Assembly: GCF_009690625.1 (NCBI RefSeq)
Contig: NZ_CP033878.1
Location: forward strand, 1,116,001-1,180,000
Length of the DNA: 64,000 nt
DNA from: Halorhabdus sp. CBA1104
GTDB taxonomy: Archaea; Halobacteriota; Halobacteria; Halobacteriales; Haloarculaceae
Direction: 5' to 3'
The notes below the pieces were generated by a model. The model saw only the letters and a list, made by a program, of their open reading frames with translations. It made no database searches and had not been told where the DNA came from. The position numbers and the translations under genes are program-made. Position 1 is the stretch's first letter; every line of letters starts with the position of its first letter. Positions 24,229 to 41,349 of this stretch are shown here, one piece after another.

Positions 24229-27200
24229 ATGGTAGATTCCGGGGAACAGATCGGCCTAGACGATTTCGACGGCGGGGTCGACAGACCGGACGAAGAGGCC
24301 CATGCCGTCGCCGGCAACGGCGGCCACCACGCTGGCGTCGTCGAGACCAGCGAGTGGCGGTATCCCGAGGCCGACGGGACTATCGAGATCTTCGTTACGC
24401 AGGTCGACTATACGATCGAGGGCAGTGGTGACGACGAGTATCCGGTCTTGCACGTCTTTGGCCGCACCAGCGACCACGAGCTAGAACATATCCGCGTCTA
24501 CGAGTTCAAACCGTACTTCTATGCGCCAGCAGCGGCCGTCGACGAGGAGCGACTCGCAAGTTACGACGCGATCACTGGCTGGGAGAGCACCGACGACAGC
24601 GACGAGCCCTACGAGTCGATTCGTGGCCAAGCGTTGCTGAAAATCTTCGGTCGGACACCGCGTGACGTCGGTCAGATCCGGGACGAGTTCGACCACTACG
24701 AGGCGGACATTCTCTTCCCGAATCGCCTGCTCATCGACAAGGACATCACCAGCGGCGTCCGCGTCCCCGAGCGACGCACGGACGACGGCTCGCTTCGCAT
24801 CCCACACGACGAGATCGAGGCAATCGATTACGACGCCCAAGCGCGGGTCAACACCTTCGACATCGAGGTTGAGGACCGCTCGGGCTTCCCGGAGGACGGC
24901 GAAGAGCCGATCATCTGTCTGACAAGTCACGACTCCTACCGGGACGAGTACATCGTCTGGCTGTACGACTCGCCGGTCGGGATCGATCCGCCCGAGGCGC
25001 TCGACCGGTACGAGCCACTCGAAGACGACTTCGAGGCAGACGTGCGGGTTTTCGAGGAAGAAGAAGCGATGCTCGGGGCCTTTCTGGAGTATATCGAGGA
25101 GACGGATCCGGACATCCTCACGGGCTGGAACTTCGGGGACTTCGACGCACCGTATTTCATCGACAGACTGGACGTGCTGGACGGCCACGCCGAAGAGAAC
25201 CTAGACATGAACCGACTGTCCCGCGTCAACGAAGTCTGGCGATCGGACTGGCAGGGGCCGGACATCAAGGGCCGGGTCGTTTTCGACCTCCTGCGGGCCT
25301 ACAAGCGGACACAGTTCACCGAACTCGATTCCTACCGGCTGGAAGACGTCGGCCAGGCCGAACTCGGGGCTGGCAAGGAGACCTATACCGGTGACATCGG
25401 GACACTCTGGGAGGAAGATCCCGAGCGCTTACTCGAGTACAACCTTCGTGACGTCGAGTTGTGCGTCGAACTCGATCGTAAACAAGACATCATCGCGTTC
25501 TTCGAGGAGGTAGCCTCTTTCGTCGGCTGCAAACTCGAAGACGCCCCGACGCCCGGCGATGCCGTCGACATGTACGTCCTGCACAAGGCCTTCGGGAACT
25601 TCGTCCTGCCGTCGAAGGGCACCGTCGAGTCCGGCGAGGAGTTCGAGGGCGGAGCCGTCTTCGAGCCGATCAGCGGGATCAAGGAGATGGTAAGTGTCCA
25701 CGATCTGAAATCTCTATATCCGATGTGCATGGTAACAATTAACGCATCCCCGGAGACGAAGGTCGATCCCGACACCTTCGATGGGGAGACGTTCCGTGCA
25801 CCGGACCCCAGCGGCCAGCATTACCGGAAGGAACCCGACGGGATCGTCCGGGAGATGGTCGAAGAATTGCTGTCGGAACGAGAAGAGAAGAAGGGTCTCC
25901 GAAACGATCACGAACCCGGGAGCGAACCGTACGAGCTCTATGACCGCCAGCAAGGAGCTGTAAAGGTTATTATGAACTGTTTCACGCCGGATACGGACGT
26001 GCTGACGCCCGGTGGCGTTCGAAACATCCGGGACGTGGAAGTTGGCGACGACGTGTACTCGATCGATCCGGACACGCTGGAGATGGAAGTCAAGCCGGTC
26101 ACCGATACGTGGGAGTATCCGGACTACGATGGGGAACTCGTCGACATCGAAACGAGCAAGATCGACTTCAGCGTGACGCCGAACCACCGGATGCTCGTCC
26201 GAAAGGACGAGACGAACGGGATCTCGTGGGACGAAGACGACTATAGATTCATCGAGGCTGGCGATCTCGACGACGCGACGAACTACCAACTCCCGCACGA
26301 CTGGGACGGTCCGGACGGCGAGCGGATCGACGAGGTGGATCTCACGGATCTCTACAGCAGCGGCGAATACGAGGTCTGGGCGGACAACGAGGTTCATGGG
26401 CATACGCTCGCTGCCGAAGTCGGGTTCTATCCCGACAAGGTACAGAAAGCCGACGAAAACACGACTGGATACGTCTTTGATCCTGAGACGTTCGAAGAAC
26501 ACAGGGAATACCTGGAGGAGGTCTGTTCGGCTTTCTACATCCACACCGAACCGAACCGGAAGTGGATACCGCGCCGGTACGACGGTGACGATTTCCTCGA
26601 ATTGCTGGCCTGGTACGTCACGGAGGGATCGATCTACACATCGGAGGACAAACAGTTCGGGGACAACTTCCGCGGGTCGGCAACGACGATCCAGATCGCG
26701 CAGGACGCCCCACTCGCTGATGGCGGGGAGAGCGACCACGCCGCTATCGGTTCTCTGCTTGACCGGATGGGACTTGACTACTACGTTGATGGGCAGGGAT
26801 TCCAGTTCACCTCGCGGTTACTCGGCTCGCTACTGGAGGAGATCGCCGGCGAGAACAGTTTCGAAAAGCGGATTCCGGAGTTCGTTTTCGATGCGAGCAG
26901 GGCCCAGAAACGGCAGTTCCTGGAGACACTCATCGATGGTGACGGGGACCGCCAGCCCAACTCCTGGCGATACAGCACCGCCAGCGAGCGACTCAGAGAT
27001 GACGTTCTGCGGCTCTGTGCGCACCTCGGGCTGACCGCAAGTTACAACGAGGATAGCGGTACCTACCGGATCTACGTGACCGAAAACGCGAAAAACACCG
27101 TTCGGATGCATCGAAGTGGCTCGTCCAGTACTGCCGAAAACGGCGTCTATTCGGTCACTGTCGCGGACAATCACACTGTCCTTGCGGGTCGAAACGGCAA

Positions 27201-29505
27201 GTTCCAGTGGGTCGGTCAGTCCCTATACGGCGTTTCGGGATGGGATCGATTCCGGCTCTACGACAAGGACAATGCGGCGGCCGTGACCGCGACGGGGCGG
27301 TCGGTGATCGAGTACACCGAATCGGCCGTCAACGATCTCGGCTACGACGTGACATATGGGGACAGCGTCACTGGCGACCGTCCGGTCGTCGTTCGCGATT
27401 CCTCGGACACGATTCGGATTCGCCCGATCGAGGACATTTTCGAGAAAGCGACAGCACGGTCGAACGGAAGCGTTCACGTCACCGCGGACGGCGGGGACCG
27501 TGTCTCGATCGAACCCGAAAAAGACCGCCGAGAGCTCGACGGTTGGGATGCGCTTTCGCTCAGTGAAGACGGCCAAGCCGAGTGGCAACCGATCGAGGCC
27601 GTGATCCGACACGAAACGGATGAAGATGTCGTCCGACTCCAGCACAAGTTCGGCGAGTCGCGGACGACTCGTGATCACTCCTACGTCGTCGAGGAAGACA
27701 GCGAGTACGTCGAGAGGGGTCCGGCTGACGTCACTGAACCGCTCCGGATTTCCGGGATGCCGGTCGAACAGCGAATCGAAGAAATTGATATTTACGAGGT
27801 TTTGAACGGTTACACACGGACGTACGAAGACGGTCGAAGTGTGGGTGGGGAACACGCTCGAACGAAGACAAAGCGGGTACACGCTGACGACGACCGGGTC
27901 TGGTTCGGTCACGAACACCACGACGACCTCGAGAAGACGGTCACGGTCAAACGGCACGTCGATATCGAGAGCGAGGACGGGCGGGCATTGATTCGTTTGC
28001 TTGCGGCCTACCTCGCCGAGGGAAGTGCGTCGACGGTCGAAACGACGAACAGCCGCTTCGGCGCGAGTATTTCCGAATCGCGTCGGGAGTGGCTCGAACG
28101 GCTCCAGGACGACTATCATCGACTGTTCGACGGGGCGAAGACTTCGATCATCGATTCGGATCGATCCGATCAACGAACAGTCGAGTACGAGACCCAGTCG
28201 GGTGATGGATCGGCCACCTACGACGACACGACGAAGAAACTCCAGATGATGAACGAACTCGCGGCAGTCTTCTTCCGCGAGTTCGCCGGCCAGACATCCC
28301 ACGGAAAGCGGATTCCCTCGTTCGTCTATCGCCTGCCCGATGCGGAGCAACAACTCTTCCTCGACGTGCTGGTCGAAGGGGATGGGTCTCGAGAGTTCCC
28401 GCGGTACAGTGAGGAGTACGCCACCGAGAACTTCGATTACGAGACGACCAGCCGCGAACTTGGAGCCGGGCTCTCGATGCTACTCACCCAGCGCGAGCAG
28501 AAACATTCACTCAAGTACCGCGACGAGAAGGGCTCCTACACGATCCGGACGTGTCAGTACTACCGATCCGGTCGAGATCCCGTTCTCGAAGAGCAATCCC
28601 ACGATGGGTACGTCTACGACCTGAGCGTCGCCGAAAACGACAACTTCGTCGACGCAGTCGGCGGGATCGTCCTCCACAATACTGACAGCGTGATGATCAG
28701 CATGGGAACGGATATGTCGATCGAGGACGCCATCGACCGTTCCTTCGAGATCGAGGAAGCGATCAACGCCTCCTACGACGAGTTCGCCCGGGAGACGTTG
28801 CAGGCCGACGAACACCGTTTCCAGATCGAGTTCGAGAAACTCTACCGGCGCTTTTTCCAGGCGGGCAAGAAGAAGCGCTACGCGGGCCACATCGTCTGGA
28901 AGGAGGGCAAAGACGTCGACGACATCGACATCACGGGCTTCGAGTACCAGCGCTCGGACATCGCCCCGATCACCAAGCGCGTCCAGAAAGAGGTCCTCGA
29001 TCTGATCGTCACCGAGGGCGACGTCGACGCCGTGACGGAGTACCTCCACGACGTGATCGAAGACTTCCAGGCTGGAAACGTCAATATAGAAGACGTGGGC
29101 ATCCCTGGTGGCATCGGCAAGCGATTGGATAACTACGACACTGACACCGCTCACGTCCGCGGGGCGAAGTACGCAAACGAGTTGCTCGGGACGAACTTCG
29201 ATCGCGGGAGCAAGCCCAAGCGCCTGTATTTGAAGAAGGTGCATCCGGACTACTTCCGACGGATCGAAGACGAACGCGGTCTCGATCCTTCCCGAGACCT
29301 CATCTATGGTGAGTTCAAACGCGATCCGGACGTCATCTGCTTCGACGTCGCCGAACAAATCCCCGCAGAGTTCGAGGTCGATTGGGAGAAGATGCTGGCA
29401 AAGACGCTCAAAGGCCCGATCGCCCGCGTCATCGAGGCACTCGACGTCACCTGGCAAGAGGTCAAAAGCGGCCAAGAGCAGACGGGCCTCGAGAGTTTCA
29501 TGTAG
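24229..29505 (+). CDS. polB: B-family replicative DNA polymerase with two inteins
   Basis: The 1758-residue precursor loses two inteins (414 and 439 residues) to give a polymerase of about 905 residues. Visible motifs are exonuclease I FDIEVED (about residue 210) and polymerase motif A DLKSLYP (492). Motif B KVIMN/SLYG is split by intein 1 and motif C YGD/TDS by intein 2, so the unspliced protein cannot be active. The N-terminal 100 residues include an acidic segment and the OB-like domain. It is the main haloarchaeal family B replicase or repair polymerase. It is divergent from three small genes and follows mre11-rad50, forming a DNA-maintenance neighbourhood. Confidence 0.97.
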   Translation: MVDSGEQIGLDDFDGGVDRPDEEAHAVAGNGGHHAGVVETSEWRYPEADGTIEIFVTQVDYTIEGSGDDEYPVLHVFGRTSDHELEHIRVYEFKPYFYAPAAAVDEERLASYDAITGWESTDDSDEPYESIRGQALLKIFGRTPRDVGQIRDEFDHYEADILFPNRLLIDKDITSGVRVPERRTDDGSLRIPHDEIEAIDYDAQARVNTFDIEVEDRSGFPEDGEEPIICLTSHDSYRDEYIVWLYDSPVGIDPPEALDRYEPLEDDFEADVRVFEEEEAMLGAFLEYIEETDPDILTGWNFGDFDAPYFIDRLDVLDGHAEENLDMNRLSRVNEVWRSDWQGPDIKGRVVFDLLRAYKRTQFTELDSYRLEDVGQAELGAGKETYTGDIGTLWEEDPERLLEYNLRDVELCVELDRKQDIIAFFEEVASFVGCKLEDAPTPGDAVDMYVLHKAFGNFVLPSKGTVESGEEFEGGAVFEPISGIKEMVSVHDLKSLYPMCMVTINASPETKVDPDTFDGETFRAPDPSGQHYRKEPDGIVREMVEELLSEREEKKGLRNDHEPGSEPYELYDRQQGAVKVIMNCFTPDTDVLTPGGVRNIRDVEVGDDVYSIDPDTLEMEVKPVTDTWEYPDYDGELVDIETSKIDFSVTPNHRMLVRKDETNGISWDEDDYRFIEAGDLDDATNYQLPHDWDGPDGERIDEVDLTDLYSSGEYEVWADNEVHGHTLAAEVGFYPDKVQKADENTTGYVFDPETFEEHREYLEEVCSAFYIHTEPNRKWIPRRYDGDDFLELLAWYVTEGSIYTSEDKQFGDNFRGSATTIQIAQDAPLADGGESDHAAIGSLLDRMGLDYYVDGQGFQFTSRLLGSLLEEIAGENSFEKRIPEFVFDASRAQKRQFLETLIDGDGDRQPNSWRYSTASERLRDDVLRLCAHLGLTASYNEDSGTYRIYVTENAKNTVRMHRSGSSSTAENGVYSVTVADNHTVLAGRNGKFQWVGQSLYGVSGWDRFRLYDKDNAAAVTATGRSVIEYTESAVNDLGYDVTYGDSVTGDRPVVVRDSSDTIRIRPIEDIFEKATARSNGSVHVTADGGDRVSIEPEKDRRELDGWDALSLSEDGQAEWQPIEAVIRHETDEDVVRLQHKFGESRTTRDHSYVVEEDSEYVERGPADVTEPLRISGMPVEQRIEEIDIYEVLNGYTRTYEDGRSVGGEHARTKTKRVHADDDRVWFGHEHHDDLEKTVTVKRHVDIESEDGRALIRLLAAYLAEGSASTVETTNSRFGASISESRREWLERLQDDYHRLFDGAKTSIIDSDRSDQRTVEYETQSGDGSATYDDTTKKLQMMNELAAVFFREFAGQTSHGKRIPSFVYRLPDAEQQLFLDVLVEGDGSREFPRYSEEYATENFDYETTSRELGAGLSMLLTQREQKHSLKYRDEKGSYTIRTCQYYRSGRDPVLEEQSHDGYVYDLSVAENDNFVDAVGGIVLHNTDSVMISMGTDMSIEDAIDRSFEIEEAINASYDEFARETLQADEHRFQIEFEKLYRRFFQAGKKKRYAGHIVWKEGKDVDDIDITGFEYQRSDIAPITKRVQKEVLDLIVTEGDVDAVTEYLHDVIEDFQAGNVNIEDVGIPGGIGKRLDNYDTDTAHVRGAKYANELLGTNFDRGSKPKRLYLKKVHPDYFRRIEDERGLDPSRDLIYGEFKRDPDVICFDVAEQIPAEFEVDWEKMLAKTLKGPIARVIEALDVTWQEVKSGQEQTGLESFM
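25978..27219 (+). mobile_element. PolB intein 1 (motif B site, 414 aa) with LAGLIDADG endonuclease
   Basis: The intein occupies residues 584-997. It starts with Cys (CFTPDTDVLTPGG) and has block B VTPNHRM. LAGLIDADG motifs appear as LLAWYVTEGS and LETLIDGDGD, so the homing endonuclease is probably intact. It ends NGKFQWVGQ before extein Ser. Removing it restores KVIMNSLYG. The C-terminal residues Gly-Gln replace the usual His-Asn, a rare but known junction type. Confidence 0.93.
27364..28680 (+). mobile_element. PolB intein 2 (motif C site, 439 aa) with LAGLIDADG endonuclease
   Basis: The intein occupies residues 1046-1484. It starts with Ser (SVTGDRPVVV), has block B TTRDHSYVV, and carries endonuclease motifs LLAAYLAEGS and LDVLVEGDGS. 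It ends with the canonical GGIVLHN before Thr. Removing it restores the catalytic YGDTDS. Intein lengths and motifs suggest an active homing endonuclease. Only 48 extein codons separate it from intein 1. Confidence 0.95.
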
Positions 29506-36127: not shown

Positions 36128-38353
<2,226 letters not shown>

Positions 38354-38424
38354 TCGTCGAACCGCGTGCGGACGTCGTCTCGCAGTTCGAACCTTACTTT
38401 GTCTCCGGGTGCGAAGTGTCGGGT

Positions 38425-41349
38425 ATGACTACCTACGATGCCGGCGAGTTCACCTTAGAGAAAGTCCGGGAGTACGTCTGGGAGATTCCCCAGGAGGGCG
38501 ACATGCGTGTCCCGGCGCGTGTGCTCGCCAGCGAGGACCTCCTCGATGAAATCAGCGATGACCGTTCGCTCAAACAGCTGCAGCAGACGGCCCACCTCCC
38601 AGGAATTCAGGAGTATGCCTTGGCGATGCCGGACGCACACCAGGGCTATGGCTTCCCCGTCGGCGGTGTCGCTGGCATCGATGCCGAAAACGGGGTGATT
38701 TCGCCCGGAGCAGTTGGTTACGACATCAACTGCTTGCCGGGCTCGACAGACGTCCGGCTGTCGTTCGGGCGGCGAATACAACTGGAAGACCTTCGGGAAC
38801 GCTTCGAGGACGAGCGAGCGATCGTCGCCGGAAACGAACTGACGGACTCGCCGATTCGGCTGTTCACGGAGTCCGGCACGAAACCGGTATACCGCGTGGA
38901 AACGACGGAGGGGCGTTCGATCGAGGCAACGGATGACCATCCGTTTCTAACGCCGGACGGGATGGTCGAACTCGGAGATCTTGAATCCGGGGACGAAACG
39001 ATCGTCCAGCCGTTTCGGGGGCTGGAACACGAGGAACCCGAAGCGTTCACAATCCTCACCGAAGACGATTTCGCTGACACAAATCCGCAGTTGACGCGAG
39101 TGCTGAAGGATCGGGACTTGCTGCCGCTTCGATCGACCGACGAGGAACTGAACCATCTCCTGAAGATCATCGGATTCCACCTCGGCGACGGATCGCTCGG
39201 GGGAGAGGGTCAACTGTGGTTCTACGGCGAGCCGGAGGATCTCGAATCGATCCGCGAGGACGTCAGGGCGATCGGTTTCAAACCGTCGAAAGTCTACTCG
39301 CGGGATCGCCAGCACGAAATCGACGGATCGTCATTCGAGGCAACCGAGCACAGTTTCAAGACGACGTCGAAAGCACTCAGACGATTGCTCATTGAACTCG
39401 GCCTTCCAAACGGGTCGAAGATTTCGTCCGGGTTCTCGACGCCGTGGTATCTCGATCGCTTGACCGACTGGCAACGCGCGCTGTTCTACAGCGCGTTCTT
39501 CGGTGCGGAGATGAACGCGCCGACCGCCCAACACGACAAGAACCTCTACTGTCCGAAAGTCTCCCAGAACAGGACGGTCGAGACGGCTGAGGCAGGTCGA
39601 GCGTTCTTCGAAGACATGGCGGCGTTCCTCGCCGATGTTGGGATCGAAACGAACGAAATCGAATCGTTCGAGACGGATTCGAACCGCGATCACGACACGA
39701 TCCGGCTACGTCTGGGAATCAAAAACGACTCCAAGAACCTGATCCGTTTTTTCTCGACCGTGGGATATCGGTACAACCTGGACAAACAGCGACGGGCGAT
39801 CAAGGCTATCGAATATCTCGAACGAAAGGAGCGCGAGATCGAGCGACGGGAACGGACCGCCAGTGAGGTGCGAGCCCGAGCCGATGGTGGAGGGCCTGTC
39901 CGAGAGCTAAAAGACGAGTACGACATCAACGACCGATTCATCGAGCGGAGCGTTTGGAGCGGTCGCGAAGGCCGACCGCGACCGGGCGAGCGGTTCCCCG
40001 ACTTCGAAGACTTCGTTGAGGACTTCGAGGTTCGGGAAAACTTGACCGTCACGACAACCATCGAATCGATCGAACATGCCGGCGAGAAACCGGTCTACGA
40101 CATCGGTGTCGAACACGACGCTCACAACTTCCTCGCAGACGGGTTTGTCGTGTCGAACTGCGGAGTGAGAATGTTGAAAACGAATCTCACCTACAGCGAC
40201 GTTCAGGGTCGCGAGGAGGCACTCGTCGACGCACTGTTCGAGGCGATTCCGACCGGTCTCGGCGGCGGCGGCGTCGTCCAGACTGACGTCGACACGCTCG
40301 AAGCAGTGCTCGAACGCGGCGTCGACTGGGCACTGCAAGAGGGTTACGCCGTCGAAGGCGATCTGGCCCACTGTGAAGACGAGGGGGTCCGTCCGGAGGC
40401 AGACGCCGAGGCGGTTTCGAAGAAGGCCAAAGACAGGGGGCGACAACAACTCGGGAGTCTGGGCAGCGGGAACCACTTCCTCGAAGTCCAGCGCGTCACG
40501 GACGTCTACCGTGCAGATGTCGCCGAGAGCTTCGGACTCGAAGACGACCAGATCGTAGTACTGATCCACTGTGGCTCGCGGGGACTGGGCCACCAGATCT
40601 GTACCGACTACCTGCGAGAGATCGAACAGACCCACCAGGGCTTGCTAGAGCAACTGCCGAACAAGGAACTCGCGGCCGCCCCCGCCGGGAGTCACCTCGC
40701 CGAGGAGTACTACGCCGCGATGAACGCGGCGATCAACTTCGCGTGGGTCAACCGCCAGCTCATCATGCATCGGACGCGGGAGGTCTTTGCGGATGTCTTC
40801 GATCGGGACTGGCGAGACATGGAGATGGAATTACTGTACGACGTCGCCCACAACATCGCCAAAAAGGAGACCCACAGCGTCGACAGGGGCGACCCAGAAA
40901 ACAGCGGTGGCGCCGTCGAAAGCACAGAGCGTGAGCTGTTCGTCCACCGCAAGGGGGCGACACGGGCGTTCCCGGCCGGCCATCCCGAAGTGCCGGCCGC
41001 GTATCGCGACGTCGGTCAGCCGATCATCATTCCGGGAAGCATGGGATCGGGAAGTTACGTCCTCCGTGGTGGCCAGAATTCCATGGAGGAGACGTTCGGC
41101 TCGACAGCTCACGGAGCGGGCCGGCTGATGTCCCGGACGGAAGCGAAAGACACCTACTGGGGCGAAGACGTCCAAGACGAGCTACAGGACCACCAGCAGA
41201 TCTACGTCAGAGCCCAGAGCGGTGCGACCGTCGCCGAAGAGGCCCCAGGCGTCTACAAGGATGTCGACGGGGTGGTTCGGATCTCGGACGAACTCGGCAT
41301 CGGGGATCGGGTCGCCCGAACGTTCCCGGTCTGTAACATTAAGGGCTGA
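38425..41349 (+). CDS. rtcB: tRNA-splicing RNA ligase RtcB with intein
   Basis: The 974-residue precursor contains a 476-residue intein and yields a ligase of 498 residues. RtcB joins 2',3'-cyclic phosphate and 5'-OH ends using GTP and Mn2+, as in archaeal tRNA splicing. Visible residues include metal-binding Cys in GYDIN/CGVRML, Asn-His in LGSGNHFLEVQ, VLIHCGSRGLGHQ, YDVAHNIAKKE, and guanylylated His in STAHGAGRLMSR. The intein sits directly before the metal-binding Cys, so only spliced protein can work. ATG 38425 (MTTYDAGEFTLEKVREYVWEIP) is the family start. Confidence 0.97.
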   Translation: MTTYDAGEFTLEKVREYVWEIPQEGDMRVPARVLASEDLLDEISDDRSLKQLQQTAHLPGIQEYALAMPDAHQGYGFPVGGVAGIDAENGVISPGAVGYDINCLPGSTDVRLSFGRRIQLEDLRERFEDERAIVAGNELTDSPIRLFTESGTKPVYRVETTEGRSIEATDDHPFLTPDGMVELGDLESGDETIVQPFRGLEHEEPEAFTILTEDDFADTNPQLTRVLKDRDLLPLRSTDEELNHLLKIIGFHLGDGSLGGEGQLWFYGEPEDLESIREDVRAIGFKPSKVYSRDRQHEIDGSSFEATEHSFKTTSKALRRLLIELGLPNGSKISSGFSTPWYLDRLTDWQRALFYSAFFGAEMNAPTAQHDKNLYCPKVSQNRTVETAEAGRAFFEDMAAFLADVGIETNEIESFETDSNRDHDTIRLRLGIKNDSKNLIRFFSTVGYRYNLDKQRRAIKAIEYLERKEREIERRERTASEVRARADGGGPVRELKDEYDINDRFIERSVWSGREGRPRPGERFPDFEDFVEDFEVRENLTVTTTIESIEHAGEKPVYDIGVEHDAHNFLADGFVVSNCGVRMLKTNLTYSDVQGREEALVDALFEAIPTGLGGGGVVQTDVDTLEAVLERGVDWALQEGYAVEGDLAHCEDEGVRPEADAEAVSKKAKDRGRQQLGSLGSGNHFLEVQRVTDVYRADVAESFGLEDDQIVVLIHCGSRGLGHQICTDYLREIEQTHQGLLEQLPNKELAAAPAGSHLAEEYYAAMNAAINFAWVNRQLIMHRTREVFADVFDRDWRDMEMELLYDVAHNIAKKETHSVDRGDPENSGGAVESTERELFVHRKGATRAFPAGHPEVPAAYRDVGQPIIIPGSMGSGSYVLRGGQNSMEETFGSTAHGAGRLMSRTEAKDTYWGEDVQDELQDHQQIYVRAQSGATVAEEAPGVYKDVDGVVRISDELGIGDRVARTFPVCNIKG
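38731..40158 (+). mobile_element. RtcB intein (476 aa) with LAGLIDADG endonuclease
   Basis: The intein covers residues 103-578. It begins with Cys (CLPGSTDVRLSFG), has block B EATDDHPFLT and endonuclease-like motifs LLKIIGFHLGDGS and LFYSAFFGAEM. It ends HNFLADGFVVSN before Cys. Removing it restores GYDINCGVRML. The penultimate residue is Ser rather than His. The first endonuclease motif keeps its Asp; the second has Glu in a less typical context, so cutting activity is uncertain. Confidence 0.95.

Follow-up and report, generated by a model that had tools for sequence, protein, structure and literature searches.

Codon islands at intein homing sites in the polB gene of a Halorhabdus and other haloarchaea, with a possible origin in recurrent homing

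What do runs of codons ending in A or T mean when they lie at the intein insertion sites of a gene whose other codons end mostly in G or C? The question arises at polB in the window, the 64,000-nucleotide stretch of DNA analysed here, which comes from a Halorhabdus genome of 2.63 Mb. An earlier note, made from the letters alone, had described such runs beside the two polB inteins and over motif A, where no intein is present. It ascribed them to co-conversion of flanking DNA during homing and, at motif A, to the scar of a lost intein or to a conversion that left the site resistant to cutting.

The gene is a single open frame of 1758 aa, made up of a 905-aa extein and two inteins (Table 1), and its extein is 87–94% identical over long stretches to those of other Halorhabdus. 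Four intein alleles of polB in Halobacteria, polB-a, polB-b, polB-c and polB-d, were described by Soucy et al. 2014 (PMC4071816); we took the site names from that survey and assigned each, by its order along the gene, to motif A, B or C or to the exonuclease site. In its terms, the inteins of the window sit at polB-b and polB-c, and motif A is the polB-a site. Intein 1 is a polB-b allele, at a position identical to that of 74 other polB-b inteins, and is a predicted endonuclease, with Hint and LAGLIDADG_3 profile matches within residues 584–997. Intein 2 is inserted as polB-c alleles are. The pol-a site that the earlier note had placed in motif A is borne out: polB-a inteins of 29 other haloarchaea lie exactly at 25710|25711 (DLK|SLYP), which is empty in the window.

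Table 1. Features of the polB locus, in positions of the window.
Feature	Position	Strand	Description	Basis
polB	24229..29505	+	family B DNA polymerase	open reading frame; Pfam/NCBIfam matches
Codon island over motif A	25687..25746	+	A/T-ending; contains the vacant polB-a homing site	z = 4.94
Motif B island, upstream half	25951..25977	+	CAA GGA GCT GTA AAG GTT ATT ATG AAC	z = 4.46 together with downstream half
Intein 1	25978..27219	+	polB-b site (MN|SLYG), 414 aa, Cys...Gln|Ser	boundaries from extein alignment
Motif B island, downstream half	27220..27252	+	TCC CTA TAC GGC GTT TCG GGA TGG GAT CGA TTC	congener comparison; background z
polB-c upstream flank	27352..27363	+	ACA TAT GGG GAC; ordinary here	z about 1; junction GAC versus GAT in 6/6 congeners
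Intein 2	27364..28680	+	polB-c site (YGD|TDS), 439 aa, Ser...Asn|Thr	extein alignment; Intein_splicing and intein_Cterm matches
polB-c downstream flank	28681..28716	+	G/C-ending GTG, ATC, AGC	congeners have GTT/GTC, ATA, AGT

The MCM gene of this genome (G000:C1:2317501-2327500) carries four inteins in one 2608-aa frame, and there are one in DP2, two in polB and one in rtcB; at 38122–41349 the window holds a gene of the RtcB family, matched by NF038162, in which both the N- and the C-terminal block of an intein are found. Gln, not Asn, is the last residue of almost every polB-a, polB-b and DP2 pol-IIa intein that we saw (..VGQ|S, ..Q|C). A few polB-b inteins (L034, L140, L141) are apparently Asn-ending, and in a few such alleles the alignment shifts the junction by one residue.

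We compared the tracts with a background of 20-codon windows from 276 genes in a 464-kb sample of the same genome. The tracts over motifs A and B persist, ranking first and second among the windows of the 905-codon extein, and windows as extreme occur in only 0.7% (motif A) and 3.3% (motif B) of genes. Motif C (27352–27363 plus the 3′ flank from 28681) is not unusual against this background (z about 1.0–1.2). The A/T-ending tracts of the earlier note are thus upheld at motifs A and B and not at motif C. Its coordinates and codons are as it described them, except that GGG and AAG, listed there as A/T-ending, are not.

The relatives of the window speak against an origin of the tracts in its two inteins. 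Seven Halorhabdus genomes were compared, the window's own included; two of the others match H. salina FL145 and H. amylolytica H27. Four of the congener polB genes are intein-free, one has an intein at polB-b only and one at polB-d only; none of the seven genomes has a polB-a intein. The intein-free genes carry, partly or wholly, GTA AGT ... AAA TCT CTA TAT ... GTA ACA ATT AAC GCA at motif A; at motif B they read GGA GCT GTC AAG GTT ATT ATG AAT TCT; and at motif C they show a clear A/T-ending run, GAT ACT GAC AGY GTT ATG ATA AGT. Their tracts are often stronger than those of the window, whose upstream half of motif B they mostly have in common, GTA and the junction codon excepted. The earlier note had itself named the sharing of these codons by intein-free relatives as evidence against scars, and intein-free Halorhabdus do carry the same tracts, so the tracts are not scars of the resident inteins. 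The A/T-ending codons said to have come with the two inteins are found in the four intein-free congeners and in the two others, which are empty at the relevant sites.

Beside both inteins, the flanks of the window differ from those of intein-free congeners in the direction of G/C-ending codons (AAC/TCC at polB-b; GAC and GTG ATC AGC at polB-c). At the polB-b junction, empty Halorhabdus alleles read AAT TCT or AAT AGT, and the two occupied ones AAC TCC and AAC TCG. At motif C, where A/T-ending codons had been claimed beside the intein, the window lacks the run altogether (GAC|ACT GAC AGC GTG ATG ATC AGC) and is G/C-ending where its congeners are A/T-ending, the reverse of the claim. If anything, the resident inteins would seem to have removed some A/T-ending codons. 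The similarity of the window's tracts to those of other genomes is nearly unrelated to extein similarity (Spearman 0.01–0.13).

The survey was extended to 159 polB, 91 MCM and 50 DP2 genes of haloarchaea, from genomes that are not independent and were drawn partly by similarity to the window. Codons of the 159 polB genes were mapped to the extein, and the expected A/T-ending frequency was taken from gene and amino acid in a logistic model. The strongest excess of the whole gene falls at polB-b (0.316 observed versus 0.114 expected), accompanied by that at polB-c (0.316 versus 0.132, and 0.295 versus 0.130); the two class-wide peaks have z = 4.0 and 3.6. Of the windows in 50 MCM genes without any intein, the top two flank MCM-a and the next lies at MCM-b, and in vacant DP2 alleles the three strongest surround the pol-IIa site. 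Peaks at polB-b, polB-c, MCM-a and DP2 pol-IIa, which vacant alleles also show, thus support the view that the tracts mark intein homing sites. Fits place the middle of the excess at the insertion point, with centres from −2.5 to +1 codons and a sigma of 6–10 codons.

As controls we used 2882 windows from four other genes (radA, sufC, EF-2 and sufB) and from off-site polB and MCM. They peak at 0.144 and none of them reaches the values of vacant polB-b (0.193), polB-c (0.210) or MCM-a (0.244). The remaining five sites fall within the top 0.3% to 8% of controls, polB-a being the weakest: 238 of the 2882 control windows are as high as vacant polB-a. At polB-b and polB-c, about 50% of vacant alleles carry more than three excess A/T-ending codons, versus 2.5% of off-site windows. 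There is no A/T-ending island at the same motifs A, B and C of the PolB2 paralogue and no excess at the radA and sufC P-loops; the EF-2 P-loop shows a mild excess, and the conserved exonuclease motif of polB (TFDIEVEDRSG) is among the lowest windows. The comparison with PolB2, radA, sufC, EF-2 and sufB supports the view that the tracts are not generic to conserved motifs, and it rules out a general use of rare codons at catalytic motifs.

Vacant and occupied alleles differ silently at these sites. Between nearest relatives, silent mismatch within 4 codons of polB-b, polB-c, MCM-a and MCM-b is about twice the gene average, and this holds for pairs of empty alleles too. In matched pairs, within ±3 codons, vacant alleles are farther than occupied ones from the occupied sequence at polB-b (Wilcoxon p = 0.0014), polB-c (p = 0.0013) and MCM-a (p = 0.00015), and at each of the three none of 106–139 pseudo-site controls is as extreme. 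A first pseudo-site test could have been inflated, real sites being more diverse than pseudo-sites, and it was repeated with matched pairs and a standardised effect. Divergence at polB-a is borderline in matched pairs, and no difference between vacant and occupied alleles is seen at MCM-b (n = 12). Vacant alleles thus diverge silently from the occupied sequence at polB-b, polB-c and MCM-a, and more weakly at polB-a. At the latter, the +1 serine is encoded by AGY in 0 of 29 occupied and 56 of 130 vacant alleles (p = 7.5e-7), and no control serine has a comparable split.

The direction of the difference does not agree with a simple model in which occupied means A/T-ending, which is ruled out at polB-c and MCM-a. 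At both sites A/T-ending codons are commoner in vacant alleles than in their occupied matches (p = 0.0096 and p = 0.046, respectively); just upstream of polB-c, A/T-ending codons amount to 38% in empty alleles, versus 12% expected, and to 16% in occupied ones. At polB-b, occupied and vacant islands are similar outside the junction codons. Haplotypes such as GTT ATT ATG AAT|TCT TTA TAT GGG GTA and AAT TAT CAG GTT GCT TAT GGT GAT recur across several genera. Among the common A/T-ending haplotypes of vacant alleles are AAT TAT CAG GTT GCT TAT GGT GAT|ACC GAC AGC GTT ATG TTA at polB-c and GGC AAA|TCG CAG ATG TTA TCA TAT at MCM-a. Sharing of haplotypes between distant genomes is enriched 2.4–2.5-fold near sites, a count that we take as support only, since genome pairs are not independent.

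Co-conversion of the kind that the earlier note proposed, with an A/T-rich flank, does occur in these genes, but at another site, polB-d. In 15 of the 159 polB genes, among them L153 and that of the congener G006 (L093), an intein interrupts the exonuclease domain at polB-d (TGWN|C). Automatic alignment left its boundaries uncertain and they were read by hand; turnover and pseudo-site values for polB-d are not trustworthy. As the residue directly following the insertion point, 138 of 144 vacant alleles have Phe and none has Cys, and all 13 resolved occupied ones have Cys; arrival of the intein must therefore rewrite the neighbouring codon, i.e., co-conversion occurs. In three genomes of two genera (L182, L183 and L197) the polB-d intein is accompanied by an identical A/T-ending flank of 14 codons (ACT GGT TGG AAC .. 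GAT TTC GAC GCA CCA TAT CTC TTA), likely a recent co-conversion tract. Occupied polB-d alleles tend to higher A/T-ending usage, a tendency not significant in matched pairs. In this respect our data resemble what is known of flank co-conversion by inteins and introns: the polB intein of Haloferax volcanii homes by gene conversion (PMC3024317), and in haloarchaeal MCM-d a flanking Pro is co-converted to Ser (PMC10643990), so that flanking codons change with occupancy as in the Phe-to-Cys change here. Unlike in those cases, A/T-ending codons mark vacant sites at least as much as occupied ones, in three genes. Two DP2 genes (L449 and L450) are interrupted at a second site, which lies 29 codons beyond pol-IIa (extein position 969, S...N), and both genomes are empty at pol-IIa.

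Could the islands nevertheless be left by inteins from A/T-richer donors, which would drag in A/T-ending flanks that outlast loss of the intein? A/T-ending codons are about twice as frequent in inteins as in exteins (0.23–0.34 versus 0.13–0.14), and the shared flank, residue change and codon tendency at polB-d are what such a process would leave. However, occupied polB-c alleles largely lack the island, occupied MCM-a alleles have a weaker 3′ half, and at polB-c of the window it is the intein-bearing flank that is G/C-ending. Codon choice in the islands is also unlike that of inteins: TTA makes up 8.8% of Leu codons in islands, against 2.3% in inteins and 1.4% off-site, and TCT 56% of A/T-ending Ser codons against 21% in inteins. 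We consider an origin of this kind unlikely. Mutagenic repair, in which recurrent breaks expose single-stranded DNA and deamination or error-prone repair raises C-to-T and G-to-A changes, visible at silent positions only, would account for an excess that is centred on the insertion point and decays on both sides, and for the raised diversity among empty alleles. It seems to us improbable, as the choice between AGY and TCN serine codons at polB-a is unreachable by single silent transitions and whole haplotypes recur across genera.

Equally little credit is given to a role of the motif DNA or mRNA that is independent of inteins (slow translation at catalytic motifs, for instance), with inteins merely targeting conserved motifs. 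The sites do lie in invariant protein motifs, and the mild excess at the EF-2 P-loop would agree with such a role; the motifs of PolB2, the P-loops of radA and sufC and the exonuclease motif of polB do not, the sites are silently hypervariable instead of constrained, and which codons stand at the insertion point depends on whether an intein is present. As to chance, A/T-ending runs are expected somewhere along a long gene, and motif C of the window is indeed ordinary. This would be a very improbable account of the whole, given that motifs A and B, the top two windows of the extein, already contradict it there and that the pattern recurs class-wide at identical sites in three genes. Phage and plasmid copies of PolB were also considered as donors of the tracts and rejected: even the closest haloviral PolBs share only about 37% identity over the region, too diverged for likely recombination donors, and plasmid copies are also below 60% identity.

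The explanation that we favour, with slightly better than even confidence, is that the tracts are homing-site codon islands, where recurrent homing drives silent turnover through resistant recoding and short conversion tracts. Silent codons at intein target sites of haloarchaeal replication genes change at about twice the rate seen elsewhere, and A/T-ending codons, otherwise rare, accumulate within about 10 codons on each side of the insertion point in vacant and occupied alleles. The intein endonuclease is the likely cause. Alleles silently unlike its cognate target would escape cutting and persist empty, and repair of cut alleles would copy short flanks from intein-bearing or uncut empty donors, by which islands could be exchanged between genera. 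When an intein arrives, the junction codons would take the cognate form (AAC|TCG-type at polB-b, GAC|ACC-type at polB-c, AAG|TCC at MCM-a). In the window, motif B may be an older island that intein 1 entered, altering mainly the junction codons; at motif C, arrival of intein 2 would have swapped the island for G/C-ending codons on the 3′ side.

Experiments in Haloferax, laboratory strains of which carry active polB-c (PMC3024317) and MCM-a (PMC10643990) inteins, are relevant to such escape: an Hfx. volcanii site with synonymous divergence was less completely cleaved by the MCM-a endonuclease, and the plasmids that escaped had point mutations (PMC10643990). One silent change by itself is reportedly tolerated by LAGLIDADG endonucleases (PMC3024317); resistance would therefore call for several at once, which would explain why codons change jointly. 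The excess of TTA (6-fold over off-site codons and 4-fold over inteins) is more in keeping with recoding than with arrival alongside an intein. Besides this tolerance, several points weigh against the endonuclease: the islands (sigma 18–30 bp) are somewhat wider than a 34–35 bp target, cognate junction codons in occupied alleles are equally obtainable by co-conversion, and the contrast between vacant and occupied alleles is small at polB-b outside the junction, borderline at polB-a and absent at MCM-b. The alternative of cut resistance, raised by the earlier note, gains partial support from the silent divergence of vacant alleles at the insertion points of polB-b, polB-c and MCM-a. That haloarchaea evade a natural gene drive by silent recoding of its target in polB, mcm and DP2, where clustered rare codons at vacant sites would block the endonuclease and leave the invariant protein motif intact, with resistant tracts spreading between genera via repair, is a wider proposal, which we put forward tentatively, as somewhat less than an even chance.

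What, then, is motif A of the window? It is a vacant polB-a site with a codon island found at the level of the genus. The atypical tract at an empty intein site was correctly seen in the earlier note, but the scar of a lost intein is only possible, no polB-a intein being present in the seven Halorhabdus genomes: the 29 alleles that bear a polB-a intein show little or no excess, and most intein-free congeners carry much of the tract. Motif A may be a scar, the product of conversion or, as we prefer, a resistant haplotype. We take the finding as a way into a general phenomenon and not as a sign that an intein was lost.

We found no earlier report of such a codon footprint in the open-access literature; the survey by Soucy et al. 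used intein presence and sequence, and its text does not deal with codons or synonymous sites. A close parallel is target-site resistance to homing drives. Escaper mutations in plasmids with an endonuclease target (PMC10643990) are likewise changes of a cut site that preserve function, and functional resistance at a conserved site has been described for an engineered CRISPR gene drive (PMC8519452), again as a function-preserving change where the element targets a conserved motif. Unlike those resistance alleles, the islands described here, whose resistance is putative, are natural, class-wide, multi-codon and common to several genera.

Inteins are natural homing drives aimed at motifs where the protein cannot change. 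The islands bear on whether hosts can evade them by silent recoding and on the long coexistence of empty and occupied alleles. A codon footprint at vacant sites would make host evasion directly testable, and it would let homing sites, past or present, be recognised from intein-free sequence. If true, evasion by silent recoding would provide a precedent in nature for resistance to engineered gene drives through synonymous change.
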